Assembly: GCA_947573605.1 (NCBI GenBank)
Contig: CANPGM010000019.1
Coordinates: forward strand, 1-60,032
Direction: 5' to 3'
DNA from: an uncultured Roseburia sp.
GTDB lineage: Bacteria; Bacillota; Clostridia; Lachnospirales; Lachnospiraceae
Length of the DNA stretch: 60,032 nucleotides
Made by a program: the position numbers and the translations under genes
The notes under the pieces: generated by a model
The model's input: the letters and a program-made list of their open reading frames with translations, nothing else
Told to the model about the DNA's origin: nothing
Database searches by the model: none
In this document: one piece after another, positions 3,124 to 41,468 of the stretch
Layout of the letters: every line of letters starts with the position of its first letter
Position numbering within the stretch: the first letter of the stretch is position 1

Positions 3124-4646
3124 CTCCTCTTCTTAAGCGCCCGAAGCTTTCCGACTAAAAAACGATACTCTGCCGTCCGGCAGTAAATCAGCAAATAAAG
3201 CAGATTCGGTACGGTTACACAAATCAAAACACGAATAAGAAGTACCATACCGTCTCCGCCCGAAACTCTGCGGCAGAGAAAATCCGCGGCAAACCAGACG
3301 CATCCCGTCACAACCGTATAAAGCAGATACTTGAAAAAATAACCCGCACACGGAGCATGAAACCCCTTTTTATATAAAATATACGGTTCAATCCACAGCG
3401 AAGTAAAAGCCATACTAAGCGTCGTACCCAGAAAAACGCCCGCCGTCCCCATCCATCCGGCCAGCACAAACGAAAATACAAGATTTAAAACGGCTTCCGC
3501 AACCGCCTTATAACGGTCATACCAGAACAGACCCAGCGAATCGCGGAACGTAAGCCCCGCATTCCGCATACCGTTTAAATAAAAATTCAGACATAAAAGA
3601 AATACAATTTCACCCGAAAAAAGATACTGTTTTCCAAAACTTAATGAAATAAACGGATTCAAAAGCTCGAACAGGCAGATAAACGAAAACCCGTACACCC
3701 ACTGTCCGAGGAAAAAAACAGCTTCAAATACTTCCCGGATATGTCCCTCTTTTTCTGTGACGCCCAGATTTCCCACACTGGCGGTAAGTCCCTGAAAAAT
3801 CTGCGTCAGCATCTGACCGACCGAGCCGATTACCAGGTAATAATTGGAATAGCTTCCGACACTGATAAGTCCCACAAATGACGATAAAAGCAGATTATCG
3901 GTATTGTTTACCACGACCATCCCGGCCTTATGCATAAACATTGCCCGGATATTCTGAAAAATCTGTTTTTTTTCGCCTGTCTCAAGCGCCCTGGCATTTT
4001 TTTCCTTTAAATAAGGATACAGCGCATTTGCCCTTCTTGTGGTGCAAAGATTGCAAAGTACGGTCGTTGCGATATTAATCAGCAAAAACAAAATAAAATC
4101 TCTGCGCCAGATCAGTACGATAATCTGCAGCACGTCCTGCAATACCCAGGACATCGTCAGATAAAACGTCCCGATATAAAAACGCTGATGCGCGTCCATC
4201 AGTATTTTTTTATAAATAAAAAGATAAGACAAAACGGCGTTTGCAAGAAACAGAAGATAAATCAGCGTCAGATGCTCCACATTTTCATAGTCCTGAATCA
4301 GAACATTCATAAACGGAAGCAGCAAAAGCCCTGCCGCCCCCACGATTACGGCAATCGCACGGTAAAATCTGCCGAACAGCCGCATCAGCGATTTCTGTTT
4401 TTCGATATTGCCCGCAGCGACCGGCTGATACAACGCATAAGTAATTGCCGTCCCGACTCCCATTTCCGAGAGGGAAAGCACGTTAATAATATCCGTAAAC
4501 AATCCGTTTACACCGACATAACTCTCGCTTAACGTATGCGTAAAGACAACCCGCAGAACATATCCCATCACAATTGCCGTCAGACGGGAACAGAGGGCTA
4601 CCGATGTATTGCGCGCCGAATATTCCGTTCTGCTTTTTAACTCCAT
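3120..4646 (-). CDS. Polysaccharide flippase (Wzx/MVF-like)
   Basis: A membrane protein of 508 residues with about twelve to fourteen hydrophobic helices, beginning with NTSVALCSRLTAIVMGYVLR. This is the usual opening of oligosaccharide translocases of the MOP superfamily, which flip lipid-linked sugar chains across the membrane. The frame is open further upstream, but the ATG at 4646 has an AAAGGG site six bases before it and gives the normal N-terminus (MELKSRTEYS). It sits between the Stealth gene (ending 4669) and the nucleotidyltransferase gene (ATGA overlap). A second, different exporter (PelG, 10869-12344) in the same island suggests two exported glycans, one teichoic-like or capsular and one Pel-like. 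Confidence 0.88.
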   Translation of the reverse strand: MELKSRTEYSARNTSVALCSRLTAIVMGYVLRVVFTHTLSESYVGVNGLFTDIINVLSLSEMGVGTAITYALYQPVAAGNIEKQKSLMRLFGRFYRAIAVIVGAAGLLLLPFMNVLIQDYENVEHLTLIYLLFLANAVLSYLFIYKKILMDAHQRFYIGTFYLTMSWVLQDVLQIIVLIWRRDFILFLLINIATTVLCNLCTTRRANALYPYLKEKNARALETGEKKQIFQNIRAMFMHKAGMVVVNNTDNLLLSSFVGLISVGSYSNYYLVIGSVGQMLTQIFQGLTASVGNLGVTEKEGHIREVFEAVFFLGQWVYGFSFICLFELLNPFISLSFGKQYLFSGEIVFLLCLNFYLNGMRNAGLTFRDSLGLFWYDRYKAVAEAVLNLVFSFVLAGWMGTAGVFLGTTLSMAFTSLWIEPYILYKKGFHAPCAGYFFKYLLYTVVTGCVWFAADFLCRRVSGGDGMVLLIRVLICVTVPNLLYLLIYCRTAEYRFLVGKLRALKKRR

Positions 4647-4668
4647 ATTGATCCCTTTCATCTCTGCT

Positions 4669-5676
4669 TCAATCTGATTCAAACGAACACTTATCCGGCA
4701 AAACCTGTTCAAAGGCCCATAATATCTGGCGTTTCGCATACAAAAAATCAATCGGATCACTCGTATCGTTGATACAGATCATATCCGCTTTCCGCTTTAA
4801 CAGTGTCTGCACCAGTTTTCTATTGTCCGTCTGCACATTAAAATAACGAAAACGCGCCGTAATATTTTTTGCTTTAAAGTTTCCCGACAGCTTCTGCCAC
4901 TCTCTTACCGCGTATTGATTTACGTCCTCCTTATTTCGAAAACGGTGGCCGCATGTTTCATGCAGGAGCTCACGCTCTTTTTCCCATAGATTTTCAAACG
5001 AAGTTTTCAGAAAAGAAGACGGTCCGTGCACCGTATAAAATCCGGTGTAGAGCGGAAACGCAAGTTCCAGCAGATTATAGAAAAAATACAGCGGCGGGTA
5101 GCCCGCCTTAAAATAGTTTCCGGGCTGCTTTAACACATTCTCCCGTTTCCTGAAATGCTTAGACAAAAGCAGCGTATTATTTAAATAAATATAGGACATC
5201 ACCGGGTCTTTCGGATTTGCTACGACCGGCTGGAACGCCAGCATATCGCAGGGCAGTCCGCCGCAGAAAAAATCGTCCGGTCTTACAAATCCGGTCAGAA
5301 AAAAGTCGTCGTTAAAATAGACAAACTTCTCCGACAGCCCCGGTATCCTGTGCATATTCCACTCAATCGTACAGGGATTAAACGTCGGAAGATATTCCTT
5401 TGGAATGTAGTCTTCATGGCGCACAATATGAAGCTTCGGATGGCTGGTATTCAGCCATTTCGGAAGATGCCCGCAGGTCACGAAATGAATTCGGCCGACC
5501 CAGGGCGCGTATTTTTCCACCCCCCGGAACCAGTATTTTAAATTACCCCAGTTACGGAATCTCTGTTCATTTGCCTCCGCTTTATTGCCCGTCAGATAAC
5601 CGCTCATCTCGCGCCGCCATGCGGCGTCGTCTCCGTCCAGCCATGATATGACAAAATCTATTCCGCTCCGTTTCAT
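4669..5676 (-). CDS. Stealth-family sugar-phosphate transferase
   Basis: A 335-residue protein with the conserved regions of Stealth proteins: CR1 IDFVISWLDGDD (6-17), then RFRNWGNLKYWFRGVEKYAP (39-58) and the CR2 core HIVRHEDYIP...EWNMHRIPGLSEKFVYFNDDFF (FNDDFF at 121-126), followed by the CR3/CR4-like region. Family members include bacterial capsule phosphotransferases and the animal GlcNAc-1-phosphotransferase; they transfer a sugar-1-phosphate to a glycan, giving phosphodiester links. An AGGAGG site lies five bases before the ATG. It is the first gene of a three-gene minus operon with the flippase and NTP_transf_5 genes, divergent from the DUF4832 gene at 5793. The phosphosugar donor and acceptor cannot be told from sequence. 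Confidence 0.9.
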   Translation of the reverse strand: MKRSGIDFVISWLDGDDAAWRREMSGYLTGNKAEANEQRFRNWGNLKYWFRGVEKYAPWVGRIHFVTCGHLPKWLNTSHPKLHIVRHEDYIPKEYLPTFNPCTIEWNMHRIPGLSEKFVYFNDDFFLTGFVRPDDFFCGGLPCDMLAFQPVVANPKDPVMSYIYLNNTLLLSKHFRKRENVLKQPGNYFKAGYPPLYFFYNLLELAFPLYTGFYTVHGPSSFLKTSFENLWEKERELLHETCGHRFRNKEDVNQYAVREWQKLSGNFKAKNITARFRYFNVQTDNRKLVQTLLKRKADMICINDTSDPIDFLYAKRQILWAFEQVLPDKCSFESD

Positions 5677-5792: not shown

Positions 5793-7220
5793 ATGAAAAA
5801 AAAATTTGTCTTCTTTCTCGTTTCGTGTCTGCTGCTGCTTCTTCTTGCAGCCGGCCTTTTCCTGTCGGCGCTTTCCCGTCGGCGCCTGCCCGTCAACTAT
5901 TGGCCTTTAAGAAATCCCGTCCAAAACCGAACGCTCGAAAATCCCTACCGGGGCTGGTATCATCTCTACGGCTACCTGCTCTCCGATACGGAACCCGTTT
6001 CTATGGAAGACGTTTCCCGTATCAGCGGCGAATATCCGTACGAAATTGTGCTGCTGGAAATCAACCTCAAAAACTACGCCGATTCCGACATCAGCCAGGA
6101 CGGCTTAAATCAGCTTACCGGCATTTTTTCCAGCTGGAAAGAAGCCGGAAAACAGCTTATCGTCCGATTTTTGTACGACTGGGACGGACGCGCTGTAGAA
6201 ACCGAACCGGAAAGCATTTCCGTAATCAAGCGCCATATGGAGCAGACCGCGGACTGTGTGAACAGCTTTAAAGACTGTATCTATCTTCTCCAGGGCATTT
6301 ATGTCGGCAACTGCGGCGAAATGAATAACTCCGCCTATATGGAAGAGGACTCCATGCGTGAACTAGCGGATTATCTGGCCTCCGTAATCGACCCTTCCGT
6401 TTTTCTCTCCGTCCGTACTCCGGCCCACTGGCGAACCATCAACCAAACATATGAACCCCTCGGCGCCGATTCCGCATTCGACGGATCGCCCGCCGCCAGA
6501 TTCGGACTTTTTAACGACGGAATGTTAGGTTCCGGAAACGACCTCGGCACCTACGGAGACGTCTCGCTTACACTTGCCGAACAATATTCCGACAAAGGCA
6601 CCAGAGAAGAGGAACTGGCATTTCAAAACCGGCTTTGCAGTTATGTGCCGAACGGCGGAGAAGTCGTCCTTGACAATCCGTATAATGACTTTTCCAATGC
6701 TCTGGCCGATTTAAAGCAGATGCGCGTTTCCTATCTGAACTGTCTCTACGACGGGACGGTTCTGGATAAATGGCGCTTTGCCGTCTATCAGGGAAACGAC
6801 TGCTTTTACGGTACAAACGGTTTCGACTATATCGGCTCGCATCTTGGCTACCGCTATGCCCTGACCGCTTCGGAATTTGAGTTCCGGCCGCTGAAAGATG
6901 ACGCGGCCGTTTTACGCATTACCATAGAAAACAGCGGGTTTTCCGCCAGCCTGCGCATGTTTTCCTCCGAACTTACCGCCGTCAACCAGGAAACCGGAAA
7001 CGTATACCGGATTCCGATAGACGCCGATTCGCGCTGCTGGTCGGGATCGGATTCCGCCACGCTCTCCGTCTCTTTAAATGTCCGTGACTGGCAGACAGGA
7101 AACTATGTGTTGTATTACTCATTGAAAGACCCTGTTTTAGACAGGCGGATCGCGTTAGCCAACGCGCTGGTTACGCCTGACTGCGGCTATCCGTTTGCCG
7201 TAATCAGCCTGCACAAATAA
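5793..7220 (+). CDS. Membrane-anchored DUF4874/DUF4832 glycosidase-like protein
   Basis: A 475-residue protein. Residues 4-26 form a hydrophobic signal-anchor, so the rest is expected outside the membrane. The DUF4874 part starts with LENPYRGWYHLYG (48-60) and includes IVRFLYDWDGRA and YLLQGIYVGNCGEMNNS (Glu176 candidate catalytic acid), VRTPAHWR and LFNDGMLGSGNDLGTYG (239-255, Asp242). The DUF4832 part ends in a beta-rich domain. These two domains normally occur together in secreted TIM-barrel proteins thought to act on polysaccharides; no activity is established to my knowledge. An AGGAGG site precedes the ATG. The gene converges on a clear paralog at 7204-8499, with 17 bases of overlap at the 3' ends. 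I infer trimming or modification of the island's polysaccharide. Confidence 0.82.
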   Translation: MKKKFVFFLVSCLLLLLLAAGLFLSALSRRRLPVNYWPLRNPVQNRTLENPYRGWYHLYGYLLSDTEPVSMEDVSRISGEYPYEIVLLEINLKNYADSDISQDGLNQLTGIFSSWKEAGKQLIVRFLYDWDGRAVETEPESISVIKRHMEQTADCVNSFKDCIYLLQGIYVGNCGEMNNSAYMEEDSMRELADYLASVIDPSVFLSVRTPAHWRTINQTYEPLGADSAFDGSPAARFGLFNDGMLGSGNDLGTYGDVSLTLAEQYSDKGTREEELAFQNRLCSYVPNGGEVVLDNPYNDFSNALADLKQMRVSYLNCLYDGTVLDKWRFAVYQGNDCFYGTNGFDYIGSHLGYRYALTASEFEFRPLKDDAAVLRITIENSGFSASLRMFSSELTAVNQETGNVYRIPIDADSRCWSGSDSATLSVSLNVRDWQTGNYVLYYSLKDPVLDRRIALANALVTPDCGYPFAVISLHK

Positions 7221-8499
7221 CCCCCAGATACACACGTTTCTCCTTTAGCCGATTCGCAAAAGCAATCGGCTCTCTGTCTCTTTTTCTCTCCATCCGCAGA
7301 AACAGTTCGAAACGCTCGCCGGGCGCCGGCCCGGCAGCTTTCATTGCAAATTCTCTCAGGCCGCCCGGCAGCAGCTCCTTCGGGAAAACCGAACGTCTCG
7401 TAAGATCGGTTACGCCGCCCCCGTCCTCACGTTCCAAAACCAGCTCCGCCTCTTCCCTCATAACGGAGAATCCGACATTTTCTATTTTGATACGAAGAGA
7501 GACTTCGTTTGTCATTCCCTTTCCATTGACCTCCCGGACGACAAAACGATAACCCATATGACATCCGATGTAGTCCAGACCATTACACCCGTTAAAAACG
7601 CCCTTCTCCCGCCAGATACTCTGTTCCCAGCGGTTCAAACACTCTATATCATGCGTGCGGTTCAGATACGAAACACCCGTCCGCCGCATCTCTTCCACAG
7701 CGCGGCAAAGCTCCCCCGTTACAGCCGAAGATCCGACGGCCTCTCCCCCGTACGGAACCTTCGCCGACAGCGTACGAATAAAAGCAAGCTCTTCCTCTCT
7801 GCACCAGCGCTCCTTCCATCCGGCTTCCTTTCTGCTTAGACTTCCGTAAGTTCCGAGATTGTCCGGCGAGCCGAACATGCCGTCGTCAAACAGCCCCGTA
7901 GTGCAGGTATCGGACGCCGCCCCTTCCTGATGCAAAATTCTCCACTGCCGCGGCGTACGCACCGCAATCGGAATTTCTCTGCAGAGAGCTTCCCGCCAGA
8001 CGTCAAAAAGTCGTATTAATCTGCTCTCCGCTAAAAATTTAGAATCGTGCATCTCTCCCCAGCTTCCGATTAACAGCCCCTGTACCAGATAAACGGCTTT
8101 AGAAAAAGAAGAGAGGACCGGACCAAGCTGCCTCATATGCTCCTCAACTGTCTGTATAAAATCAGGCTCGCGCTCCATTCCTTTTCCCTCACGGTCATAA
8201 ACAGGACGTATGATCATTTCCTTTTTCTGCTTCTGAAAAAAAGCAAAAATTTCCGCAAGGCGAAGCAGCGCTTCCTGCGGCAGACTTCCTTCCCGATACG
8301 CGCCGATATCGATCAGCAAAAGCGCCAGCCGCTCTTCCTTTACAAGACACCAGAACAACTCTTCAAAATCCGGTTCCCGCTCCAGTGAAAACGGATAAAT
8401 GCGGTACCACCCGCGGCCCGGATTGGTAAGAACCTCCTTACTTTCGGAAAGCTCCGCCTTATGAAATACTGTTTTACACTTTTTCCTCATAAAGCTCAT
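7204..8499 (-). CDS. DUF4874/DUF4832 glycosidase-like protein without signal peptide
   Basis: A 431-residue paralog of the gene facing it. Shared motifs in the same order are LTNPGRGWYRIYP (24-36), YDREGKGMEREPD, YLVQGLLIGSWGEMHDS (Glu149), VRTPRQWR, TGLFDDGMFGSPDNLGTYG (Asp205/206), KVPYGGEAV, SYLNRTHDIE and GLDYIGCHMGYRF. Unlike its partner it has no N-terminal hydrophobic segment, so it is probably cytoplasmic, or exported by an unusual route. It is the last gene of the long exopolysaccharide operon; its start overlaps the glycosyltransferase 2 gene by 26 bases. Retention of all aromatic and acidic motif residues suggests it is still active. The substrate is unknown. Confidence 0.8.
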   Translation of the reverse strand: MSFMRKKCKTVFHKAELSESKEVLTNPGRGWYRIYPFSLEREPDFEELFWCLVKEERLALLLIDIGAYREGSLPQEALLRLAEIFAFFQKQKKEMIIRPVYDREGKGMEREPDFIQTVEEHMRQLGPVLSSFSKAVYLVQGLLIGSWGEMHDSKFLAESRLIRLFDVWREALCREIPIAVRTPRQWRILHQEGAASDTCTTGLFDDGMFGSPDNLGTYGSLSRKEAGWKERWCREEELAFIRTLSAKVPYGGEAVGSSAVTGELCRAVEEMRRTGVSYLNRTHDIECLNRWEQSIWREKGVFNGCNGLDYIGCHMGYRFVVREVNGKGMTNEVSLRIKIENVGFSVMREEAELVLEREDGGGVTDLTRRSVFPKELLPGGLREFAMKAAGPAPGERFELFLRMERKRDREPIAFANRLKEKRVYLGVICAG

Positions 8500-9271
8500 T
8501 CGACAGCTTGCCCTCCGTCTCGATTTTTAAGACCTTGATGCGGAACAGGATTGCCGCAATGCTAAACAGCATACGGAACATATAAATAATCGGCTTTAAA
8601 CCGGAATGCATACTGACTCCTTCCGTCCTCTGATGCATAACGGCCGGAATTTCTCTGATTTGAAATCCCAAAAGCAGCATCTGCATAATAATATTGGCGT
8701 CCGGGTATTTATCGTCGAAATGATTAAACTGTGAGTAGTAAAGAACCGTCCTCCTGTTTAACCCCTGAAGCCCCGTCGTAGGGTCGGTAATCCGCCTGCC
8801 GGTACCCAGTTTTATCATAAAGCGAAACAGACGATAAGCCAGCTTTTTACTGCCCGAAATCGGAAACGCCGTACTGCCCGGCATAAATCTCGATGCCAGC
8901 ACAATATCGGGCGCTTTTCCGTTCTCGCCCTTCTCTTTCAGCGCCTGATAAATCAACGGAACATTACAAACATCGTGCTGCCCGTCGGCATCCATCTGTA
9001 TGACATACTGATAACCGCGCCGGATGGCATATTTATATCCAAGCTGCAGCGCGCTGCCGTAACCCAGGTTAAACACATGCGTTACCAGTGTGCGGCGTCT
9101 GCCTTTTACAATCCAGTTTGTCTTGTCGGAGGATGCGTCATTCATTACCAGTACGTCCGCCATACTCCGAATTTGCGGCTGTTCCAGTTTATCTAAAACT
9201 TTTGTAATATTTTTTTCCTCATTATACGCCGGTATAATAATCAGTACCTCTTTCTGATCCTTCTCGTACAT
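8474..9271 (-). CDS. Family 2 glycosyltransferase (DPM/ArnC-like)
   Basis: About 265 residues with a GT-A fold: IIIPAYNEEKNI near the start, VMNDASSDKT (sugar-nucleotide loop), VIQMDADGQHD (metal-binding DAD around residue 94) and RFMPGSTAF. A hydrophobic helix near the C-terminus (MFRMLFSIAAILFRIKVL) would hold it to the membrane. This subgroup usually transfers a sugar from a nucleotide donor to a lipid phosphate. I chose ATG 9271, which has GGGGAGAG before it; the frame also allows 9283. It lies between a GT4 gene and the DUF4832 gene in the exopolysaccharide operon, so a role in that glycan is likely. Confidence 0.9.
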   Translation of the reverse strand: MYEKDQKEVLIIIPAYNEEKNITKVLDKLEQPQIRSMADVLVMNDASSDKTNWIVKGRRRTLVTHVFNLGYGSALQLGYKYAIRRGYQYVIQMDADGQHDVCNVPLIYQALKEKGENGKAPDIVLASRFMPGSTAFPISGSKKLAYRLFRFMIKLGTGRRITDPTTGLQGLNRRTVLYYSQFNHFDDKYPDANIIMQMLLLGFQIREIPAVMHQRTEGVSMHSGLKPIIYMFRMLFSIAAILFRIKVLKIETEGKLSNELYEEKV

Positions 9272-9302
9272 AACTCTCCCCATATCCCCATAAAAATCTG
9301 AT

Positions 9303-10505
9303 TTACAACAGCGTCAGCAAAAGCTCCATATCCTCTTCGTACTGCATATTTTTTGCGGCGGCTGCTTTTGCAAAACATTCCCTCTCATTCGGATGTTCTA
9401 TCAGCCGCTTAATGCTGTCCGCAATTCCCTCCGCAGACAACGTACAGAGCAGTCCGTCGCGGCCGCTTTCCATCTGCTCCCTGTTGCCGCTGCAATCGGA
9501 GGCGACTACTGCGCACCCCAGCACAAACGCCTCCTGAATCGCAATGCTCTTTCCTTCAAACCGGCTCGCATGTACGTAAATATCGCATTCCCGGAAATAG
9601 GGATACGGATTTTCCACCGAACCGAGCAATAGAAAATCCTCTTCAAGTGAAAGACTCTTTATCTGCTTTTCCAGTTTCTCCCGGCAGTCCCCTTCTCCCA
9701 GGACATACCAGCGCACCGGATACCCTTCGTCCTTTAAAATCTTCATTGCCGGAATCGAAATGTCAAACGCCTTCTGATACGTCAGCCGCCCAACCGACAA
9801 GAGACGCACACCGTCAAAGTCATCCGAAAATCCCAGACCCCGTTTTGCCATTTCCCGGATTCTCTCCCGGTTAATCATATTGTGGAATACAAACGTCTTA
9901 TCACTGTATTCCGGATAAACTCTGCAAAAGTTCTCACGCACCTCGTCGGATACCGCAAAAATCCGATCGTAACAACGATAGCAGTCATGATCCATCGTTC
10001 TGGTATAGCCCGCGCCTGCATAATCAATATGTACAAACGCCGCTTTTTTTTTCGCATTTACATGTTCCGCCACATAATAAGCAGCCGCTCCTTCCAGATA
10101 GGCAATTGCAAGGTCATACGTTTCGTTTAGCCGCTCCCCGCCGTCCGAAACCATTCTCCACAAAAGCTTATCCGGTTTGATGCCGGAGCCTTTTCTCATA
10201 TCCGCAAGGTTCTGAAAAATATCCCCTGTTTTTTTCAGCATCCGTCCGTTTCTGAAAAAGCTTTTGAAAAGCGTTTTCATTAACGCGCGTTTTCCCTCCG
10301 CCGACAACACGGAGCTGTCCCGATAACGGGTATTTTTCAAAGCGACGTAATCCGGGAGTTCATGAACCAGCTCCCCCTGCTCCAATACAACATACAGTGA
10401 AACTTCATACCGTTCGGGCGGCAGCTTCCGCAAGAGCTCTAACATCGCAGTCTCCGCTCCCGCGCGTCCGAGCGTATTAATGACAAACAGTATCTTTTTT
10501 TTCAT
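9303..10505 (-). CDS. Family 4 glycosyltransferase
   Basis: A 400-residue GT-B enzyme. The N-terminal motif ILFVINTLGRAGAETAMLEL, the middle LLSVGRLTYQKAFDISI and the C-terminal FEGKSIAIQEAFVLGCAVVASD (the E-x7-E donor-phosphate motif) are typical of GT4 enzymes. They retain the anomeric configuration and use a nucleotide sugar. Its start overlaps the upstream DUF2304 gene by 29 bases. It probably adds a residue to the glycan made by the PelF/PelG machine or to a linked lipid carrier; donor and acceptor are unknown. Confidence 0.92.
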   Translation of the reverse strand: MKKKILFVINTLGRAGAETAMLELLRKLPPERYEVSLYVVLEQGELVHELPDYVALKNTRYRDSSVLSAEGKRALMKTLFKSFFRNGRMLKKTGDIFQNLADMRKGSGIKPDKLLWRMVSDGGERLNETYDLAIAYLEGAAAYYVAEHVNAKKKAAFVHIDYAGAGYTRTMDHDCYRCYDRIFAVSDEVRENFCRVYPEYSDKTFVFHNMINRERIREMAKRGLGFSDDFDGVRLLSVGRLTYQKAFDISIPAMKILKDEGYPVRWYVLGEGDCREKLEKQIKSLSLEEDFLLLGSVENPYPYFRECDIYVHASRFEGKSIAIQEAFVLGCAVVASDCSGNREQMESGRDGLLCTLSAEGIADSIKRLIEHPNERECFAKAAAAKNMQYEEDMELLLTLL

Positions 10506-10872
10506 TTTCCCGCTCCCACAGTTCCTTCATTTCATGCAATATACGTTCGTTTTCCTGATTCAGCAAAGATACATGCATCGCAATTTCCCGATTTTTCCGA
10601 ACTAACTGCGATATGGTACAGCTAATTCGAAACGCTCCAAGCAAAACAGAAACGCTTAGTAACAGAAACGCCGGATAAGCCTCTTTCGGAAGTACTCTGC
10701 ACCAGTCCGACAAGCCGGGAACCGCCCCAAGCAAAATCAGAATAAATGCAAAGCATCCCCATCCAAGTCCCATTCCCTCGGTTATTTTTCTGTAGACAAA
10801 GGAACGGAAATCCAGGCACAGAAGCAGTACTCCTTCCACCGCCACGATTACGCGTAACATATCTGCCGTCAT
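10477..10872 (-). CDS. DUF2304-type small membrane protein
   Basis: A 131-residue protein with three predicted membrane helices (VIVAVEGVLLLCLDF, GCFAFILILLGAVPGL, AYPAFLLLSVSVLLGAF) and a charged C-terminal coiled-coil tail (SLLNQENERILHEMKELWERE). DUF2304 proteins regularly sit beside lipid-linked glycosyltransferases and are thought to help anchor or regulate them; their mechanism is not known. The ATG overlaps the pelG stop (ATGA) and its own end overlaps the GT4 gene, so all three are translationally coupled. Confidence 0.75.
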   Translation of the reverse strand: MTADMLRVIVAVEGVLLLCLDFRSFVYRKITEGMGLGWGCFAFILILLGAVPGLSDWCRVLPKEAYPAFLLLSVSVLLGAFRISCTISQLVRKNREIAMHVSLLNQENERILHEMKELWERENEKKDTVCH

Positions 10873-15703: not shown

Positions 15704-18037
15704 CTACTCGTTCCCCTCCGACGTCCGCCCGGTCATATTGTAGCCGTAGTCGATGGCAAAATTAATCGGGCTGTACAAATCCTGCTTGATACAGTAACAA
15801 AGAAATCGATCCGTCTCATAATAGACTCTCATCTCATTCGGATACAGTTTCTGAAACGCCTGCGCCCAGTAATACATGCGCGACATCTCAATCCAGCGTT
15901 TTTCTCCCTGATACATGGAGATTCCCGAACCGACCGGAATCGGACGCTTTGCCCCCTCTTTTGAAACGGGGCTCCCGCTTCCTTCATACGGCTCGCCGTA
16001 ATCAATCGGAATTTTTTCTATAAAAAAGTAAACCTTTAACGTCGGAATAATAATATTAGCGCCGCTTCCGATTCGTTCCATGCTTCTTAAAAACGGATGG
16101 ATTTCATAATGATAACCGTAGGCCTCTCCCATACGAAGCTCATCGTTCGCCGAGCAGATCGTCCAGGAGAAATCTTTTTCCTCCGCCAGAATATTTGTCA
16201 GACAGGTGACCGCTTCATTGGTCTGCAGCGCTTTAAAATCCGGCAGCTCCTTCCGCACGTCCTCCCGGGCGGCAAATGCAAGAACCGCCCCTGCGGCAAC
16301 AAAGGACACAAGATGCATCGGCCATTTCCGTTTCGCCCATCCCATGAAAAGCTGCAGCACGCCGTCAATGCACATGCTCCACGCCATCACAAGGGAATAC
16401 GCATAAAAGATACTGGTACGGTTCGTATCCATAAGCTCCGGCAGCCCGGCTTCGGAAGCGCCTAACAGCACCGACAAAAATGCCAGAAACGCCGCCGTTG
16501 ACAAAAGCTTCGCCCCGTAATCCGGCTGCTTTAGCAGAAAGAAAATTAACGACAAAGCAGTTAGCAGGAATATTCCTCCGGGAACCGCGTATTTTAAAAA
16601 CGGGTGATTGCCCGGAATCAAAAACGAGGAGACTACTTCCCATACCGCTCCCGGAATCCTCTTAAGCGCGCCAATCAGTTTTTCCGTTAAAGACGGCTTT
16701 TCCTTTTTCTGCTGCGCCGCACTTCCGGAAGCAGCGCCGTCTTCCCCGGATGGCGATACGCCGTTTTCCGGAATCTGCATACTCGTTCCCGCTCCCCCCG
16801 CAGATTCCGTACCGTCAATCAGATCGTCCTCCAACTCGGAAGGCGGTGCCTCCGCCTCGCTCTCCGCTCCCTTGATGACATTCAATCCCCAGCCGAGAGA
16901 TCCCTGCAGCGGCGTCCCCATTGCAAAGGCAACGGCCATCGGAAGTATGGCAATAAAAATCGAAGCGAAACCGGTCAGCATCACCCTGCCGAAATACCTT
17001 TTCCGAAACAGCCGAAAGCAATATCCCACCGCAATTCCCAGGCAGAACATTCCGGCTATCATCGCATTATAAAAATGCACCGAAATCGTCATACTAAAGC
17101 AAAACGCAAAACAGATCAGATTCCACTTTTCTTCTCTCAGTCTTTTTTCTTTTTTTTCAAATAAGGCGAATAAGTAATAAGCCGACGGCATAATAAACAA
17201 CATGCCGAATTCCTGCGGCAGAGAACTGAAATAGCGGGTATAGGTATTGGCGGAAAAGATTGCGGACGCCGCATAAAGAAACGTTCCCGCATAGGCCGCA
17301 AACCTCGTTTTGCAGCAGCTTTTGCCAAACGCAAGCAGGCAATAGTGAATCATCAGCGTCTGAACGAAACAGAAAATCCGAAGCAGCACATATACCGGTA
17401 TGCCAAACACCGTATACATATAATAGATGATACAATGAAAACCGTAGGGATAAATCCCCGCAACAAAAATATCATTCTGCTCCATCGCATTAATCCAGTA
17501 ATTATGAACCGGAATATCCGAAGCGCAGTATCCGAAATTCCGTACCAGATTAATTCCGTAAGCCCAGACAAGAACGCCCGTTAAGATCAAAAATAAAATC
17601 AGGTCGGGCAAATTTCTTCCGATACAGGAAAAAAACGTACGAAATCCACTCTTTATCCGTCTAAGGACCGCTCTCCCCAAACGCCTGAAATACAGCCTGA
17701 CCCCAAGCCTGCCGTCCGCTATTTTTTCCAGGATATAAAGCGCGTTTTTAACCGCTAAAAGCGGATGCTTTCCGTTTAGCCGAATATATGCCGCCAGAAA
17801 CGGACCAAACGTAAGACAAACAAGCGTAACACGATTGGAGATACGCAAAAGCTGCAGAAGAAACACCAAATTCATTACATAAAAGTTTCCGATTACCTGA
17901 TACGTCATAAAACGGACCGAAAATTTTTCGCTTTTTAATTTCCGGCGAAACAGCATCGCAGGCAGAAGAAATGTCAGACAAAGATATGCCGCCAGTATTT
18001 CAAAAAACTGCATAATCGTCAACGCCTCCATCGACAC
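15704..18037 (-). CDS. Large multi-span membrane protein, GT-C/polymerase-like
   Basis: About 777 residues with a dozen or more membrane helices. After the first helices comes a loop with YCASDIPVHNYWINAMEQND, whose acidic/aromatic pattern is like the first extracytoplasmic loop of GT-C glycosyltransferases. HFYNAMIAG and a soluble C-terminal part follow. A low-complexity Ser/Gly/Glu-rich linker (about 405-465) splits the helices into two groups. I chose GTG 18037, which has GGAGG eight bases before it; ATG 18031 is also possible. Not a recognised Pel protein: a lipid-linked sugar transferase, polymerase or membrane scaffold are all possible. It lies between the PelE-like and DUF2194 genes in one operon. 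Confidence 0.75.
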   Translation of the reverse strand: MSMEALTIMQFFEILAAYLCLTFLLPAMLFRRKLKSEKFSVRFMTYQVIGNFYVMNLVFLLQLLRISNRVTLVCLTFGPFLAAYIRLNGKHPLLAVKNALYILEKIADGRLGVRLYFRRLGRAVLRRIKSGFRTFFSCIGRNLPDLILFLILTGVLVWAYGINLVRNFGYCASDIPVHNYWINAMEQNDIFVAGIYPYGFHCIIYYMYTVFGIPVYVLLRIFCFVQTLMIHYCLLAFGKSCCKTRFAAYAGTFLYAASAIFSANTYTRYFSSLPQEFGMLFIMPSAYYLFALFEKKEKRLREEKWNLICFAFCFSMTISVHFYNAMIAGMFCLGIAVGYCFRLFRKRYFGRVMLTGFASIFIAILPMAVAFAMGTPLQGSLGWGLNVIKGAESEAEAPPSELEDDLIDGTESAGGAGTSMQIPENGVSPSGEDGAASGSAAQQKKEKPSLTEKLIGALKRIPGAVWEVVSSFLIPGNHPFLKYAVPGGIFLLTALSLIFFLLKQPDYGAKLLSTAAFLAFLSVLLGASEAGLPELMDTNRTSIFYAYSLVMAWSMCIDGVLQLFMGWAKRKWPMHLVSFVAAGAVLAFAAREDVRKELPDFKALQTNEAVTCLTNILAEEKDFSWTICSANDELRMGEAYGYHYEIHPFLRSMERIGSGANIIIPTLKVYFFIEKIPIDYGEPYEGSGSPVSKEGAKRPIPVGSGISMYQGEKRWIEMSRMYYWAQAFQKLYPNEMRVYYETDRFLCYCIKQDLYSPINFAIDYGYNMTGRTSEGNE

Positions 18038-18070
18038 TGTTCTCACCTCCGTTTTCTCATCGCTGACTGC

Positions 18071-21201: not shown

Positions 21202-21215
21202 ATATACCACTCCAT

Positions 21216-21473
21216 CTACCGCAGGATTCCTTCTTTTTTTAAAGATTCCAGAAACAGGCGCACATCCTCTTTTGCCTCGTCTCCGGATATATCATACGTC
21301 TTTTTCAGATATTCTGCAATTTGTTTCGGGTCTTTTCCGTCGCACAAAAGCTTCCATATTGCAGCCCCGCTTTTGTTTAACATCAAAGGCTTTCTGAAGT
21401 TCTTTCCGTCCTGCTCCATATCAAGCAGCCAAAAACACCCCGCCGCTTCGCGTAACTGATATTTCTCCTTCAT
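21216..21473 (-). CDS. PqqD-like peptide-recognition protein
   Basis: An 85-residue protein with the winged-helix PqqD pattern: a beta-hairpin (GCFWLLDMEQDGKNFRKPLML) then LNKSGAAIWKLLCDGKDPKQ and helices ending DVRLFLESLKKEGIL. PqqD-type domains bind the leader of a precursor peptide and present it to modifying enzymes. It lies 13 bases after the peptidase gene and 14 before the PelD-like gene, so it is transcribed with the exopolysaccharide machine. The likely client is the leader-bearing protein at 22229, though this is inference. Confidence 0.85.
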   Translation of the reverse strand: MKEKYQLREAAGCFWLLDMEQDGKNFRKPLMLNKSGAAIWKLLCDGKDPKQIAEYLKKTYDISGDEAKEDVRLFLESLKKEGILR

Positions 21474-21486
21474 CTTATATCCCCAT

Positions 21487-21930
21487 TCAATCCGTTTTTC
21501 GGGAAAATCTCTGTTTTACGGCATGGACGGCAACGGCTATGCGATGCCGGAACGGCCTCATCAAAAGCCACGCCGTACTGTAAGCACGGTAGGCCAAATG
21601 CCTGACGGAACGCGTTCTTCCTCTTCGGACAAACCCTGTCAGCATTCCCCGTACCTGATCAAACCTCACCGGCCCTTCTACCTGCGTCTGATTGTCGCCG
21701 ACCAGAAAAAGCCCGTTTTTTTTTATTTTCCATATCCGGTGCAGTACGAGAATTCCTTCGTCACGACGGAATAAAACGACGTCGCCGCGCTTTAGCCTGC
21801 CGCGGGGCGGTCCGATCACGGCCATGTCCCGTTCCGGTACAAACAGCGGATACATACTGTAGCCGTTTACCTTTAACTGAACCGTTTTTCCGTCCTGCAG
21901 CAAATGTTCTACATCCATCTTTGCTTCCAT
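21487..21930 (-). CDS. S24/S26 signal-peptidase-like protease
   Basis: A 147-residue protein with the S24/S26 fold: VNGYSMYPLFVP (Ser25 candidate nucleophile in the SMxP box), GRLKRGDVVLFRR, VLHRIWKIKKNGLFLVGDNQ and a C-terminal TGFVRRGR. VLHRI replaces the Lys of ordinary bacterial signal peptidase I with His, as in Ser-His (SipW/ER-type) enzymes. Two weakly hydrophobic stretches near the C-terminus may touch the membrane. First gene of the minus-strand operon, with GGAGG nine bases before its ATG. It probably removes the leader from the divergently encoded precursor; a general signal peptidase is less likely given the neighbours. Confidence 0.85.
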   Translation of the reverse strand: MEAKMDVEHLLQDGKTVQLKVNGYSMYPLFVPERDMAVIGPPRGRLKRGDVVLFRRDEGILVLHRIWKIKKNGLFLVGDNQTQVEGPVRFDQVRGMLTGFVRRGRTRSVRHLAYRAYSTAWLLMRPFRHRIAVAVHAVKQRFSRKTD

Positions 21931-22228
21931 TCCGCTTTTCCTCCCGCAGCGTGGCGCACTATTGTTAAAATTTAATAATTATTATATCATTTTTTCTGTA
22001 TAAATGCTATAAATTTTCAAATTTTATCAGACAAATATTAAAATATAGATCATACCTGCCAGAATGAAAACAGGACATTTTCGTTAAAAATGCAAAAATT
22101 ATACAGCGAAATTCAACGAAAATTATGCATTTTATATTGACTTCACTACTATACTAAAATATAATGTATTTAGTAATTAAATAAATTTCCTGTTCACACA
22201 TGTCTATTTTATTAAGGAGAGTGTCGAG
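21931..22228. promoter_or_regulatory. AT-rich divergent control region between the operon and precursor gene
   Basis: The region is about 298 bases and clearly more AT-rich than the genes. It contains a strong plus-strand promoter, TTGACT (22137-22142), 17 bases, TATAAT (22160-22165), with the start of transcription near 22172 and an AAGGAG site nine bases before the ATG at 22229. For the minus operon only a possible TATAAT (21986-21981) without a clear -35 is seen, which hints at an activator. Inverted motifs listed separately lie between them. Confidence 0.7.
22077..22132. repeat. Nested inverted repeats upstream of the precursor promoter
   Basis: ATTTTCGTT (22077-22085) recurs inverted as AACGAAAAT (22115-22123), and AAATGCA (22088-22094) recurs inverted as TGCATTT (22126-22132). 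Both pairs have half-sites 38 bases apart and lie immediately upstream of the -35 box at 22137. This is the pattern expected for a regulator binding two sites; no regulator gene is adjacent. Confidence 0.5.
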
Positions 22229-22681
22229 ATGAAAAATTATGAGAAGCCAGTACTCATGAAGGAAGAGGATCTGGCAGAAGGCGTTTACGCGGCAAGCGGC
22301 GATGTCACCTCAGGCGGCGATTGTTGGACGGTAGAACCTGTTTCTGTGCAGGACTGGAACGGTTCGCATCATGTATTTGAAATACGCTGCCGGCACACAA
22401 ATGCAGTAGAGCACATTTCATCCGCAACAACAGTTGTACTTACATTCAACAATGAATTGACAGACGCCTATTCGGAATTTCCCGCAAGCTTCAGCGGCAG
22501 TACCGTGACAGTAGTCCGCGAGCTGCTTGCAGATGCCTATAATTCAGGCGACAATGTAACCTATAAGGTTTGGGCAAAATCATCCGATGAGGCTACTACA
22601 AAAGCTTTAGCATGTACCGGTTCCAGCATTACTTGTACGAAAACTGTAAATGTGCAGGGCGGAGGCGCCGACGGCAACTAA
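22229..22681 (+). CDS. Secreted protein precursor with conserved leader (RiPP-like)
   Basis: A 150-residue protein of a family I recognise only as Lachnospiraceae hypothetical proteins. The N-terminus (MKNYEKPVLM...LAEGVYAASG, residues 1-24) is charged, not hydrophobic, so it is not an ordinary signal peptide. The ...EGVYAASG ending looks like a leader with a small-residue cleavage site. The core (25-150) starts with a DCW region, has four cysteines, alternating Thr/Ser/Val strands (TTVVLTFNNEL, FSGSTVTVVRELL, SSITCTKTVNV) and a Gly-rich end. That suggests a beta-sandwich secreted protein. It is followed by its own terminator-like hairpin and an ABC exporter gene, and is divergent from peptidase and PqqD genes. 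I infer PqqD-guided export and cleavage; the mature function may be a matrix or adhesion protein. Confidence 0.8.
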   Translation: MKNYEKPVLMKEEDLAEGVYAASGDVTSGGDCWTVEPVSVQDWNGSHHVFEIRCRHTNAVEHISSATTVVLTFNNELTDAYSEFPASFSGSTVTVVRELLADAYNSGDNVTYKVWAKSSDEATTKALACTGSSITCTKTVNVQGGGADGN

Positions 22682-22776
22682 GTTATCAACGAAGCCTGTC
22701 TGCAGTCCCAGCGGCTGCGCTTTGGGCAATAACCCGTTATCCGATTATCAGAAAATTTAACTGCGAAAAGCAGGAA

Positions 22777-22875
22777 GCTGCCGCATTAACAAAAACAGAG
22801 ACAGGGCATCGCGGATTCCGTTCCCGGTGGTACTTATTTTCCTGCCTGTTTTACGATTAATGCGGCGGCTTTTTT
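22777..22875 (+). terminator. Long imperfect hairpin ending in U6 between precursor and exporter
   Basis: GCTGCCGCATTAA (22777-22789) pairs with TTAATGCGGCGGC (22857-22869), 13 positions with one G-U pair, directly followed by six T (22870-22875). Inside, AAAACAG (22792-22798) pairs with CTGTTTT (22846-22852) and CAGG with CCTG, so the 67-base interior continues the stem. It works as a terminator on paper. Partial read-through would make far more precursor mRNA than exporter mRNA. It may alternatively be a structured regulatory RNA. Confidence 0.6.
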
Positions 22876-22927
22876 CACTTTAAAAATATGCGTGAAGGCG
22901 CCGTCGTTTTCAGCAAAAAGGAAGGCT

Positions 22928-24709
22928 ATGAGAGAGAAAGTTACATTTTACATAAACCGCATCAGGGAAGGCCGTTTAAAGGAAATGCGGCGGCAGACGG
23001 TCTGGATTTACCAATATGCAAAAAAATACTGGGCGGCTATGATTTTTTATACAATTCTCGGAATGATCAGTACGGTAGTTGCACTCCTACTCAGCCTTGT
23101 CTCAAAAGATCTGGTCGACATCATCACCGGCCACCAGACCGGAGAAGTCGTTAAAACGTTCTGTATTATGATCGGACTGAATGTGGGAACCACTCTTATC
23201 AATCTACTGTCCGACTACGCTTCAAGCTGGATCAGCATGAAAGTAGACGCGGAAATCAAAACCGATATCTTTTCAAAAATTCTGGTAACGGACTGGGAAT
23301 CCTTAACGAACTATCACACCGGCGATCTTTTAACCAGATGGAGCCGCGACGCCTCGAATATTTCCTCCGGCGTTCTTAATTTCATTCCGAACTGTATTAT
23401 CTATCTGTTCCGCTTTATCAGTGCGTTTGCAATGGTCGTCTATTATGACGTATCTTTTGCCGTATTCGCTTTTATCGGTATGCCGGTCAGTCTTCTGCTT
23501 TCCAAAACGCTGATGAAGCGGATGATCAATAATAATAAACGGAGCGCCGAAATGGGCGCGAAGATGTCCGGTTTTAATCAGGAGACATTTTCCAATATTC
23601 AGTTTATCAAAGCGTTCGATCTGATTCATCTTTACATCGAACGCTTAAAACAGCTTCAAAAGGAATTCATTTCCATGAAGCTGGATTTTCAGAAAATGTC
23701 GATGGGCACTTCTCTGCTTTTATCTACGGTCGCGCTCGCGGTCTCCTATGCTTCGTACGGATGGGGCATCTACCGCGTATGGAGCGGAGCCATCAGCTAC
23801 GGAGCAATGACGATGTTTTTAAGCCTTTCCGGCACGCTCACGGGCACGCTGCACAATCTGACGTCGCTGGTTCCCGGGGCGATTTCTCTAACCACCTCCG
23901 CGGGACGGCTGATGGATATTGTGGAAATGCCCCAGGAGGACAACAGTCATGATGAAGAAGTCGACGCCTTCTTTTCCAGATATCAGCAGACGGGCATCAG
24001 TCTGTGCATGAAGGATATCCGGTACTCCTACGCAAACAGCCAGCCGGTATTCGAGCGTGCCGGTTTAAGAGCGCACCCGCATGAGGTCATTGCTTTGGTC
24101 GGCCCCTCCGGCGAGGGAAAGACGACGATGCTTCGCCTGATGCTCTCCTTGATTGTGCCGCAGGGCGGAACGGCGGCTCTGTGCGGAGGAACCGCCCGGT
24201 TAAGCGACAAAGACGCCGAAAAGATTCCGCTGACCGCTTCGACAAGAAAGCTCTTTTCTTATGTGCCGCAGGGAAATACCATGTTCTCCGGCACGATTGC
24301 GGAAAATATGCGAAACGTGAAGCCGGACGCTACCGACGATGAGATTATAGAAGCGCTGAAAGCCTCCTGCGCCTATGAATTTGTAGAAAAGCTTCCGAAC
24401 GGCATTCACAGTGTTATCAAAGAAAGAGGGGGCGGTTTTTCCGAGGGACAATCCCAGCGGCTATCCATTGCAAGAGCACTGCTTCGAAAGTCGCCGATTC
24501 TGCTGCTTGACGAGGCAACTTCGGCATTGGACGTCGATACGGAAAGACGGACGCTCTTCCATATTATGAAGGATGATTATCCCCGCACCTGTATTGTCAC
24601 GACACACCGGCCGACCGTGTTAAGCGTCTGTACCCGCGTCTACGCCATCCGCAATAAGCAGTGCGTATCGTTAAGCGAAAAGGAAATACGCGACCTGATA
24701 AATAAATAA
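22928..24709 (+). CDS. ABC exporter with fused membrane and ATPase domains
   Basis: A protein of 593 residues. The membrane half (about 20-310) has six helices (WAAMIFYTILGMISTVVALLLS onward). The ATPase half has Walker A GPSGEGKTT, the Q-loop region YVPQGN, signature FSEGQSQRLSIARALL and Walker B ILLLDEATSALD, with His in the switch (VTTHRPT). This is a type-I exporter acting as a homodimer. There is no N-terminal C39 peptidase domain, so leader cleavage must be done by another protein, presumably the S24/S26 peptidase. I chose ATG 22928 (AAGGAAG site) over the upstream GTG 22892. Its position after the precursor gene makes the precursor its probable cargo. Confidence 0.92.
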   Translation: MREKVTFYINRIREGRLKEMRRQTVWIYQYAKKYWAAMIFYTILGMISTVVALLLSLVSKDLVDIITGHQTGEVVKTFCIMIGLNVGTTLINLLSDYASSWISMKVDAEIKTDIFSKILVTDWESLTNYHTGDLLTRWSRDASNISSGVLNFIPNCIIYLFRFISAFAMVVYYDVSFAVFAFIGMPVSLLLSKTLMKRMINNNKRSAEMGAKMSGFNQETFSNIQFIKAFDLIHLYIERLKQLQKEFISMKLDFQKMSMGTSLLLSTVALAVSYASYGWGIYRVWSGAISYGAMTMFLSLSGTLTGTLHNLTSLVPGAISLTTSAGRLMDIVEMPQEDNSHDEEVDAFFSRYQQTGISLCMKDIRYSYANSQPVFERAGLRAHPHEVIALVGPSGEGKTTMLRLMLSLIVPQGGTAALCGGTARLSDKDAEKIPLTASTRKLFSYVPQGNTMFSGTIAENMRNVKPDATDDEIIEALKASCAYEFVEKLPNGIHSVIKERGGGFSEGQSQRLSIARALLRKSPILLLDEATSALDVDTERRTLFHIMKDDYPRTCIVTTHRPTVLSVCTRVYAIRNKQCVSLSEKEIRDLINK

Positions 24710-24734
24710 ACTATTTGGAAAGGAATGTTGTCCC

Positions 24735-25919
24735 ATGAAATTAAAAAACGGCTATCTGCTTTACGAATCAGGCGGCGCTTCTTATCTGCTGCCCTACGGG
24801 CAGAATATTGCGGATCACAGACACGGAATGCGTTTAAATGAATCCGGAAAGTTTTTGTATACGGCGCTCTTACGGGATCAGGATTTGTTTGCAGATTGTA
24901 CAAAACAGGACGCGGAACAAAAGCTGCTTGCTCTGCTGCTTGCCCATTACGAAACAAACGCGTCCGAAGCGCCCGCTCTTTTAGCGGATATCAAGAGCTT
25001 TCTCTCTCACCTTCAGAGAATTGACGCGCTTTCCGATTCCGAAGTGCAAATTTCCGCTCCGGAACGAACCTGTTTTCGCATCGGACCTCTCACACTGGAA
25101 TTTTGCGGGCCGAAAGAACTGATTCCCCCTTCTTTTTTTCCGTTTTCCTGTAAACCGGAGCCAAAATGCCCGGATCAGACCGTCTATCTGTTTCCGAGCG
25201 CGCCGCTCTTCCATGCGGGCGGTGAAGTATTGATTCGCACGGAAGAACTGATGCTTTTAAAAAATGAGGAGTGCTACCTGTTTTTATACCCGGCAGGGCA
25301 CGGCATTTCGGAAGTCCACTTAACTCTTGACGGACAAAAAGCCATCTTCTACTGCCACTGTCCGTTTTCCGACGATCTGCCGGAACAATTGTTTCACGCC
25401 ATCCGCTTTACCTTTCTCGTAAAAGCGCAGATGGAAGGACTGTTTGCCGTTCACTCGGCCTCCGTCCTCTATCGTAGCAGCGCATGGCTGTTTGCCGCTC
25501 CTTCGGGTACCGGAAAATCCACCCATGCCGCGCTCTGGAACAGTCTTTACAAAACGCCCGTATTAAACGGCGATTTAAACCTGATTGGTTTTTCGGACGA
25601 CAAGCCGATCGTTTACGGCATTCCGTGGTGCGGGACCTCCGCTCAATTCACTGCAAACGCATATCCGCTCGGCGGCATTGTTTTTTTAAGCCAGGCTTCC
25701 CATGATTCCGCAGCTTTTGTGACAGCAGAAAAAGCACAGCTCTCCGTCATGCGGCGTATGGTTTCACCCGCATGGACGAAGGCTATGCTTTCGGAAAATC
25801 TTAATTTTGCAGGACATCTTTCAAAAAAGATTCCTTTTTTTTCACTTGCATGTACAAAAGAGGCGTCTGCGGCGGCCGCATTAAAAAAATGCATTGATTC
25901 TGCGCTCACGACCGCCTGA
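24735..25919 (+). CDS. PqqD-HprK-like kinase fusion
   Basis: A 394-residue protein. The first 95 residues resemble a PqqD-type winged helix (MKLKNGYLLYESGG, HGMRLNESGKFLYTALL, LLADIKSFLSHLQRI). The C-terminal part has a P-loop APSGTGKSTHAALW (about 256-269) followed by PVLNGDLNLI and YGIPWCGTS, the HPr-kinase/PEP-carboxykinase fold. Related HprK-like proteins in lasso-peptide and similar clusters phosphorylate a residue of the precursor. Here the built-in PqqD part could itself grip the leader. It is 25 bases after the ABC exporter gene, in the same direction. Kinase activity on the 22229 product is inference; a Ser/Thr-rich core offers targets. Confidence 0.85.
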   Translation: MKLKNGYLLYESGGASYLLPYGQNIADHRHGMRLNESGKFLYTALLRDQDLFADCTKQDAEQKLLALLLAHYETNASEAPALLADIKSFLSHLQRIDALSDSEVQISAPERTCFRIGPLTLEFCGPKELIPPSFFPFSCKPEPKCPDQTVYLFPSAPLFHAGGEVLIRTEELMLLKNEECYLFLYPAGHGISEVHLTLDGQKAIFYCHCPFSDDLPEQLFHAIRFTFLVKAQMEGLFAVHSASVLYRSSAWLFAAPSGTGKSTHAALWNSLYKTPVLNGDLNLIGFSDDKPIVYGIPWCGTSAQFTANAYPLGGIVFLSQASHDSAAFVTAEKAQLSVMRRMVSPAWTKAMLSENLNFAGHLSKKIPFFSLACTKEASAAAALKKCIDSALTTA

Positions 25920-41436: not shown

Positions 41437-41468
41437 GAGGAAACAAGAAAGGAGTACGGAGAATTTTT

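Follow-up and report, generated by a model that had tools for sequence, protein, structure and literature searches.

RiPP recognition elements (RREs; RiPPs being ribosomally synthesised and post-translationally modified peptides) and peptide kinases belong to the known machinery of peptide natural products. Among the closest described systems are the lasso-peptide clusters of paeninodin, pseudomycoidin and bsf which, in the available text of two reports, combine a leader carrying YxxPx[hydrophobic], a PqqD/B1-type RRE, an HprK-like kinase, a nucleotidyltransferase and an ATP-binding cassette (ABC) exporter (PMC8498205; PMC10368454). According to the same partial texts, lasso leaders present YxxPxL to their B1/RRE proteins and phosphorylation by BsfK is greatly accelerated by the RRE BsfB1 (PMC10368454), while lasso kinases phosphorylate serine and the pseudomycoidin nucleotidyltransferase then decorates the phosphate with one or two hexoses (PMC8498205). 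A second point of reference is the Gram-positive Pel exopolysaccharide locus, for which the main text of one survey describes an epimerase-domain PelD in clostridia and places the pel genes of Roseburia within a larger capsule- or teichoic-type cluster whose product is unclear (PMC7112168). Here, we describe a module at positions 21,216 to 25,919 of a 60,032-nucleotide stretch of DNA (the window) from an uncultured Roseburia sp. (GenBank assembly GCA_947573605.1, contig CANPGM010000019.1), in which a leader-bearing cargo gene, an exporter, an RRE-kinase fusion, a peptidase and a PqqD protein adjoin a Pel-type operon. We consider it fairly probable that an RRE-guided set of kinase, peptidase and ABC exporter here processes folded matrix proteins, which are probably glycan-binding, and exports them beside a Pel-type polysaccharide.

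The module is centred on a cargo gene of 150 aa (22229-22681, plus strand), which matches no Pfam family at E ≤ 1 and whose first 24 codons (22229..22300) encode a non-hydrophobic leader. On the same strand lie an ABC exporter of 605 aa with fused transmembrane and nucleotide-binding domains (22892-24709; ABC_membrane and ABC_tran) and a protein of 394 aa (24735-25919) that joins an RRE (residues ~1-95) to an HprK/PEPCK-superfamily kinase with an intact P-loop (residues ~105-394). The minus-strand operon begins with a soluble S24/S26 peptidase of the SipW/archaeal type (21487-21930; Pfam Peptidase_S24, 3.2e-7; archaeal-type signal peptidase model, 7.1e-9), followed by a stand-alone PqqD/RRE protein of 85 aa (21216-21473; Pfam PqqD, 1.8e-14) that lies 5 bases before an SDR-PelD-like gene. 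A first-pass annotation of this DNA had already proposed that the peptidase and PqqD genes open an operon running into PelD/PelE/PelF/PelG-like genes, that a leader-bearing precursor, an exporter lacking a C39 domain and a PqqD-HprK fusion lie divergently, and that an NTP_transf_5 gene at 1894 closes the island; all of these are located where it placed them, the last at 1894-3123 (minus strand, E 7.6e-42). No C39 domain is found among the 15 families listed for the exporter at E ≤ 1. Equally in line with that annotation, no cyclase, radical-SAM or transglutaminase-type B2 family occurs among the 39 window open reading frames (ORFs) scanned with Pfam (37 of the 57 ORFs of at least 150 aa and two shorter ones, part of them scored at E ≤ 1e-5).

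A scan of one genome per species (84,980 species) returned 123 relatives, and the best 80 of these 123 loci contain 121 leader-bearing ORFs by iterated profile. In the window cargo, the leader has YxxP at residues 4-7 and EGVYAASG at residues 17-24; the family pattern is YxxP followed by EG[VI][YF]xxSG, with the first Y/F 13 residues (12 in two ORFs) before the EG motif. YxxP is present in 119 of the 121 ORFs and FxxP in one, the remaining miss being an ORF with an assembly gap, and the residue that ends YxxPx[residue] is V in 91 of the 119 leaders, I in 19, A in 6 and L in 3. The scan for the 80 loci used two patterns, of which EG..ASG was one and neither of which included YxxP, and all matches were confirmed by cargo similarity. 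Across 38 hand-picked mixed cargos, only M1, Y4, P7, E17, G18 and Y20 are invariant, with A21 to G24 nearly so. The (-3,-1) rule of signal peptidases fits A22/G24, since A, G or S stands at position 22 in 118 of 119 leaders and G at position 24 in 117 of 119. Ser23, found in 118 of 119 leaders beside the presumed cut, is the sole Ser or Thr common to nearly all cargos, whose core types share no Ser/Thr column, and is therefore a test case for a phosphorylation target. At the DNA level, the leader pattern occurs at 31 places in 13 genomes, not all of them leaders, against 4 for the reversed pattern.

The near-constant leader precedes a variable core. The earlier view of a single precursor thus gives way to several unrelated cores behind a shared leader, and this constant leader on changing cargo is a new observation. 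By our own motif rules, which misfile some rows (such as L070 under D, and L050 and L082 under other), 54 of the 121 ORFs carry the NVQG core of the window (core A), 26 a His-rich core (B), 21 a Cys-rich core (C), 8 a core with Pfam CBM_2 (D) and 12 some other core. Cores A and B are homologous by hhalign (97.2% probability, E 4e-11), and of three type-D cargos tested against Pfam CBM_2 (cutoff 24 bits) two score 29.4 and 26.5 bits and the third 22.6. Two or more cargos are present in 33 of the 80 loci, and their motif classes differ in all 33. Cargo genes are also found with no recognised exporter or kinase in the stretch (G022:C55:15132; G029:C51:23339, near a contig end; G146:C2:81000; G146:C7:53560), and these stray cargos include further core types, one of them very short and Cys-rich. 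Those of G022 and G029 sit on other contigs than the module, and in G146 no module was found.

The window cargo itself consists of the 24-aa leader and a predicted beta-sandwich core of ~125 aa. A protein database yielded 419 relatives at E ≤ 0.01; the few names among those listed are mostly Lachnospiraceae-type, with one Gastranaerophilales metagenome-assembled genome. An alignment of 35 rows (A1) shows 63-76% identity to the window protein, and at 46 positions 95% or more of the best 120 of the 419 relatives share a single residue, with Y4, P7, E17, G18, S23, G24, C32, C136 and NVQG (141-144) kept in 120 of 120. NVQG (22649-22660) is invariant in these type-A relatives, among the matches listed, although it lies in a poorly predicted tail, and so may be a recognition or processing site. 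The highest 19-residue hydropathy over the whole cargo is 0.64; with no hydrophobic stretch, the leader is not a Sec signal. In the predicted structure the core is well modelled and the leader, like the tail, poorly. This core is predicted to be a beta sandwich closest to carbohydrate-binding module family 2 (CBM2), its top Foldseek match being the CBM2 of C. fimi (6qfs, E 4.3e-4), which is also the sole match at E ≤ 0.001. Sequence searches for relatives of the core in Pfam, NCBIfam and the PDB gave none above chance.

Action on the leader-bearing cargo is the best explanation for a kinase with an RRE of its own. The PqqD match of the window kinase alone is weak (E 0.045) but becomes clear across its family, of which 28 of 29 members match PqqD at E ≤ 0.1 (best 1.3e-12); the lasso RRE TbiB1 is the best PDB match of the N-terminal profile (E 7.3e-5). 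The predicted structure (pLDDT, the predicted local distance difference test, 92.5) shows a PEPCK/HprK-superfamily kinase domain which, with its P-loop, is of the HPr kinase-like type. HprK_rel_A is matched by 9 of 29 members at E ≤ 0.01 (best 2.8e-4), and against the model for the HPr-rel-A system (TIGR04352) the window kinase scores 13.5 bits, under the curated cutoff of 200. In a scan of 398 genomes of the phylum, with at most four candidates scored in each, four have the kinase profile at E ≤ 1e-45 and only the window's own genome has the fusion. In two genomes of other families, single loci (L186:8300-11500 and L187:8600-11800) encode S26 peptidase, HprK-like kinase and PqqD as separate proteins, together with a short YxxP peptide of 57-58 aa, and look like clusters of a small-peptide RiPP kind. 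Judging by these two loci, the Lachnospiraceae module may be an offshoot of a broader S26/HprK/PqqD type, one that acquired folded cargos.

The S26 protease is the probable leader peptidase. In alignment A4 (numbered without the first Met), His63, Arg64 and Gly77-Asp78-Asn79 are invariant in 22 of 22 members and Ser24 is nearly so, one row being cut at its start; the Ser and His boxes and the GDN motif of S26 proteases are thus in place, at scores under the NCBIfam cutoffs. Its highest 19-residue hydropathy ranges from 0.44 to 1.42 over all 22 members, which marks it as soluble, and 6 of the 22 match the SipW model. The NCBIfam models closest to the stand-alone PqqD are lasso PqqD chaperones, also under cutoff.

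In light of these likenesses, should the module be counted among the lasso clusters? An RRE combined with a YxxPxL-type leader is present as far as sequence can tell, in the near-universal YxxP and the match to TbiB1. However, the module has an S26-type peptidase, and neither the B2 transglutaminase-type protease nor the C asparagine-synthetase-like cyclase of lasso clusters occurs among the 39 window ORFs (no genome-wide search for them was made). Its RRE is fused to the kinase, Y4 and P7 are separated from the presumed cut by four residues more than in lasso leaders, and the window cargo is predicted to be a folded domain rather than a short threaded peptide. With no cyclase or B2 protein seen and a folded cargo, the module falls outside the lasso peptides, whose working principle it shares.

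Matrix proteins encoded beside a polysaccharide operon are known from Bacillus, where TasA has a dedicated SipW-type signal peptidase; TasA carries a Sec signal peptide, whereas the window leader is non-hydrophobic and the window peptidase has no membrane helix. The Rap proteins of Rhizobium leguminosarum, secreted by the PrsDE type I system, are likewise ABC-exported polysaccharide-matrix proteins (PMC9298526, available text). Their folds are different, and we know of no RRE, kinase or leader cleavage for them. As for CBM family 2 itself, matched by the type-D cargos and perhaps resembled by the predicted fold of the window core, it is here carried alone behind a RiPP-type leader. No description of the cargo module was found in the open-licence PMC papers searched, and none for NTP_transf_5/PF14907 either; the leader-guided cargo system linked to Pel-type loci is a real and conserved one that seems to be undescribed.

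The operon that the peptidase and PqqD genes open is of Gram-positive Pel type, having both PelF (12361-13830; NF038011, 4e-111), a glycosyltransferase, and the exporter PelG (10869-12344; 5e-151), on the minus strand like the other genes listed here unless stated. Upstream of these are the SDR-PelD-like gene (19003-21210), whose product has an N-terminal short-chain dehydrogenase/reductase (SDR)/epimerase part, a membrane region and a C-terminal part with RxxD, a gene in the PelE position (18071-19006) with no Pfam family above chance, a multi-pass membrane protein (15704..18046) that is weakly DUF6541-like, under cutoff, and a DUF2194 protein (13853-15691). RxxD, a putative cyclic di-GMP (c-di-GMP) site, is kept in all 10 PelD rows of an alignment that includes one identical pair. 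A TPR-GGDEF diguanylate cyclase (43026-44567, plus strand) is encoded in the same window and is a possible c-di-GMP source for Pel control. In the window and in relatives, the DUF2194 protein stands immediately upstream of pelF, where the PelA deacetylase would be expected. A sequence comparison with the PDB, made to see whether it is a deacetylase, gave no relative, and it is a candidate for a different polymer-modifying enzyme. Downstream of pelG, Pfam identifies a GT4 glycosyltransferase (9303..10505), a GT2 glycosyltransferase (8474..9283), a DUF4874/DUF4832 protein (7204..8499) and a second one (5793..7220) on the plus strand, opposite to the surrounding operon. They are followed by a Stealth-type protein (4669..5676; Stealth_CR2, 4.8e-43), of what we take to be a sugar-phosphate transferase family, a multi-pass membrane protein that looks flippase-like by eye (3120..4760; no Pfam match at 0.01) and the NTP_transf_5 nucleotidyltransferase. 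The latter belongs to a Pfam family that presumably includes lasso PsmN and BsfN, keeps K111, G112, D129 and D131 in 24 of 24 rows of alignment A5, and lies near the cargo and exporter in many relatives. The window thus shares epimerase-domain PelD, PelF, PelG and DUF4832 with the described pelDEA(DA)FG loci, and differs from them in having DUF2194 for the PelA deacetylase, extra glycosyltransferases, the Stealth and NTP_transf_5 genes and the RRE/cargo/exporter module (PMC7112168, available text); the main text of that survey mentions neither PqqD nor a transporter.

How regularly do these parts occur together? Many of the 80 loci end early, and 37 span 20 kb or more. An exporter gene lies in 77 of the 80 (all 37 of the long ones), the kinase in 60 (31), the S26 peptidase in 50 (29), NTP_transf_5 in 48 (26) and at least one of the last three in 75 (37); kinase, S26 and NTP_transf_5 come together in 19 of the 37. 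A polysaccharide gene, by a count based on broad families such as glycosyltransferase 2, flippase-like, Stealth and DUF4874, is found in 55 of the 80 loci and 31 of the 37. Two of the loci, L059 and L091, are probably the same records as G029:C8 and G022:C76 in the genome sample below.

A less biased sample is given by 150 genomes of the family, each from another genus. Of 19 matching genomes, 13 were taken as leader genomes and six core-only matches in long ORFs were dropped (G004, G044, G055, G077, G086, G098). PelG is present in 12 of the 13 leader genomes against 30 of the 150 (hypergeometric 5.7e-9), and a fused kinase in 12 of the 13 (E ≤ 1.2e-98). The kinase profile at E ≤ 1e-10 is found in 41 of the 150, mostly as a lone kinase or a lone RRE belonging to other, unfused systems; fusions within one ORF occur in 14, of which 12 are leader genomes (p 6.8e-15) and two, G023 and G049, match at a lower score. 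NTP_transf_5 at E ≤ 1e-76 is found in 12 genomes, all leader genomes except G035. The gene set is thus linked to Pel-type loci far above chance, which bears out the earlier claim that precursor, PqqD-kinase, S26, exporter and NTP_transf_5 form a conserved set that goes with Pel, and the precursor is not mostly found without PqqD/HprK or pel genes, a finding that would have told against that claim. Whether the two divergent units stay together was also checked: cargo and PelG lie on one contig within 30 kb in 10 of the 13 leader genomes, but the divergent units are rearranged and gene order is shuffled among relatives, and in G025 the module and PelG are on different contigs. G076 keeps the window order S26-PqqD-PelD-PelE...PelG with kinase and cargo alongside, while G146, 68% complete and the only leader genome without a fused kinase, has PqqD-PelD...PelG together on a single contig, its cargos being spread over three more. 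With these exceptions, and with neither leader cargo nor fused kinase in 18 of the 30 PelG genomes, the module is an optional partner of Pel-type loci and not part of Pel synthesis. An order-wide search of 295 genomes gave seven matches at E ≤ 0.001, five of them leader-bearing and all from the window's family, the other two (G394, G242) being core-only in long ORFs.

On the reading that we favour, the 24-residue leader with its lasso-type YxxP would be read by two RREs, the stand-alone PqqD and the one fused to the kinase. The HprK/PEPCK-family kinase would phosphorylate the cargo; this, and any sugar that is added, is drawn by analogy from lasso-peptide enzymes. The soluble S26 peptidase, probably presented by PqqD, would remove the leader after A-S-G24, and the C39-less ABC exporter would send the product out, where the beta-sandwich, probably glycan-binding (CBM2-like) cargos and their Cys-rich companions may bind or order the Pel-type polysaccharide of the linked operon. 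The order of the steps, the cleavage site, export by the ABC protein and binding to the polysaccharide are what we infer from this gene set.

Several points weigh against it. Phosphorylation, cleavage and secretion of the cargo are themselves inferred steps. As EG..ASG was used as a scan pattern, its conservation is biased upward. The window cargo has no match to CBM_2 by sequence, and a profile comparison of core A with the CBM_2-type core D failed to join them (hhalign probability 5.7%). VIA-align scores the window core at 8.8 with the C-terminal part of a chitinase, 8.6 with CBM2 and 8.3 with mu-homology domains, with others tied, and for these ties we call the core CBM2-like and not CBM2. 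Among the 80 loci, 25 have no polysaccharide gene in the stretch (6 of the 37 long ones), and only 14 have PelD, PelF or PelG inside it. In G096, kinase, cargo and exporter occur although PelG is absent; this genome was counted as leader-bearing on a match that begins only at model position 10, and the leader beside its kinase has EGIYAGSG but no YxxP. Finally, the solitary fusions of G023 (L188:9212-10348, E 7e-63) and G049 (L189:9249-10457, E 3e-58) have housekeeping genes as neighbours, and neither cargo nor exporter nor S26 was recognised in the 18 kb around them, so that the fusion can have another or a lost partner.

These exceptions also feed the alternatives. If the kinase and NTP_transf_5 served the polysaccharide, by phosphorylating a precursor or a regulator, and the cargo were an unmodified secreted protein, the solitary fusions and the position of NTP_transf_5 in the polysaccharide operon, adjoining the Stealth-type gene, would be accounted for, and in other Firmicutes a possible role in Pel regulation has been considered for a CotH-like kinase (PMC7112168, available text). 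We regard this as unlikely, given that the kinase has a lasso-type RRE joined to it and follows the leader cargo, not PelG, more than half of the PelG genomes having neither leader cargo nor fused kinase. Doubtful, too, is that NTP_transf_5 sets a sugar or glycan on the phosphate left by the kinase, giving a phosphoglycosylated matrix protein tied to the polysaccharide. The pseudomycoidin chemistry is a precedent for it (PMC8498205, available text), and NTP_transf_5 is frequent in the 80 loci and, at the strict threshold, nearly confined to leader genomes; against it, the cores have no universal Ser/Thr acceptor, NTP_transf_5 at E ≤ 1e-10 extends to 45 of the 150 genomes, 33 of them without leader cargo, and sugar-phosphate chemistry on the cargo would rest on analogy. 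Rather unlikely as well is the far-reaching version of such a matrix, programmed by the leader, in which interchangeable glycan-binding cargos behind a single RRE-read leader would each be marked with phosphate by the kinase, probably at a site such as the widely shared Ser23, given a sugar by NTP_transf_5 and exported joined covalently or tightly to the Pel-type polysaccharide.

A different departure is to see the polysaccharide genes as mere neighbours and the cargos as bacteriocin-like antibacterial proteins made by RiPP-type machinery. The PqqD/B1, HprK-like kinase, nucleotidyltransferase and ABC exporter genes are indeed lasso-peptide genes (PMC8498205; PMC10368454; available text), type-C cargos are Cys-rich, two distant genomes pair the unfused trio with short YxxP peptides, and G096 lacks PelG. 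This is nonetheless improbable in view of the linkage to PelG, the CBM_2 domain of one cargo type and the annotated window ORFs, among which no immunity-like gene was recognised (no dedicated search was made). Bacteriocins usually diversify, whereas the core shows strong conservation. The linkage could also be no more than hitch-hiking on an island of surface-polysaccharide genes in Lachnospiraceae, which would suit a system apparently limited to the family and near neighbours (5 of 295 order genomes, all in the family, and a fused kinase in the window's own genome only among those scored in the phylum) in which cargo and exporter positions are shuffled. We hold this to be just as improbable, since the co-occurrence extends over 150 genomes of 150 genera, the set is retained despite rearrangement, and one cargo is of CBM type.

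The region of the cargo gene also holds candidate expression signals. A promoter-like site, TTGACT-17-TATAAT (22137..22165, plus strand; 11 of 12 consensus positions), ends 64 bases before the cargo start codon, in a region where both strands gave 6 such sites against 2.7 expected. In the gap between cargo and exporter, a long, very stable hairpin followed by a U-run (22770..22880, plus strand) is a probable terminator or attenuator: folding of 22770-22885 gives -47.2 kcal/mol, with z -6.6 and 0 of 200 shuffles as good, and a simple terminator scan (loop 3-8) does not list it. Of 67 gaps tested, among them that of the window, 37 have hairpins with z < -3; for each gap the best of several placements was kept, which inflates z. 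A promoter-like site before the cargo gene and a terminator-like hairpin after it fit a structural protein, and suggest that the cargo is made in excess over its exporter. Elsewhere in the window, a purL-type gene lies downstream of the kinase gene on the other strand, a MatE transporter (40287-41569, minus strand) is split into two overlapping ORFs, both with Pfam MatE, by an apparent frameshift, and type I restriction-modification M and S genes are found at 55090-58009 (plus strand).

Parts familiar from small modified peptides thus seem, in gut Lachnospiraceae, to sort and process folded, sugar-binding structural proteins. If true, this would widen the scope of RRE-guided leaders, and YxxP...EG[VI][YF]xxSG would provide a bioinformatic handle for secreted proteins without a Sec signal. 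In turn, the role of Pel-type polysaccharide in gut commensals would become testable.

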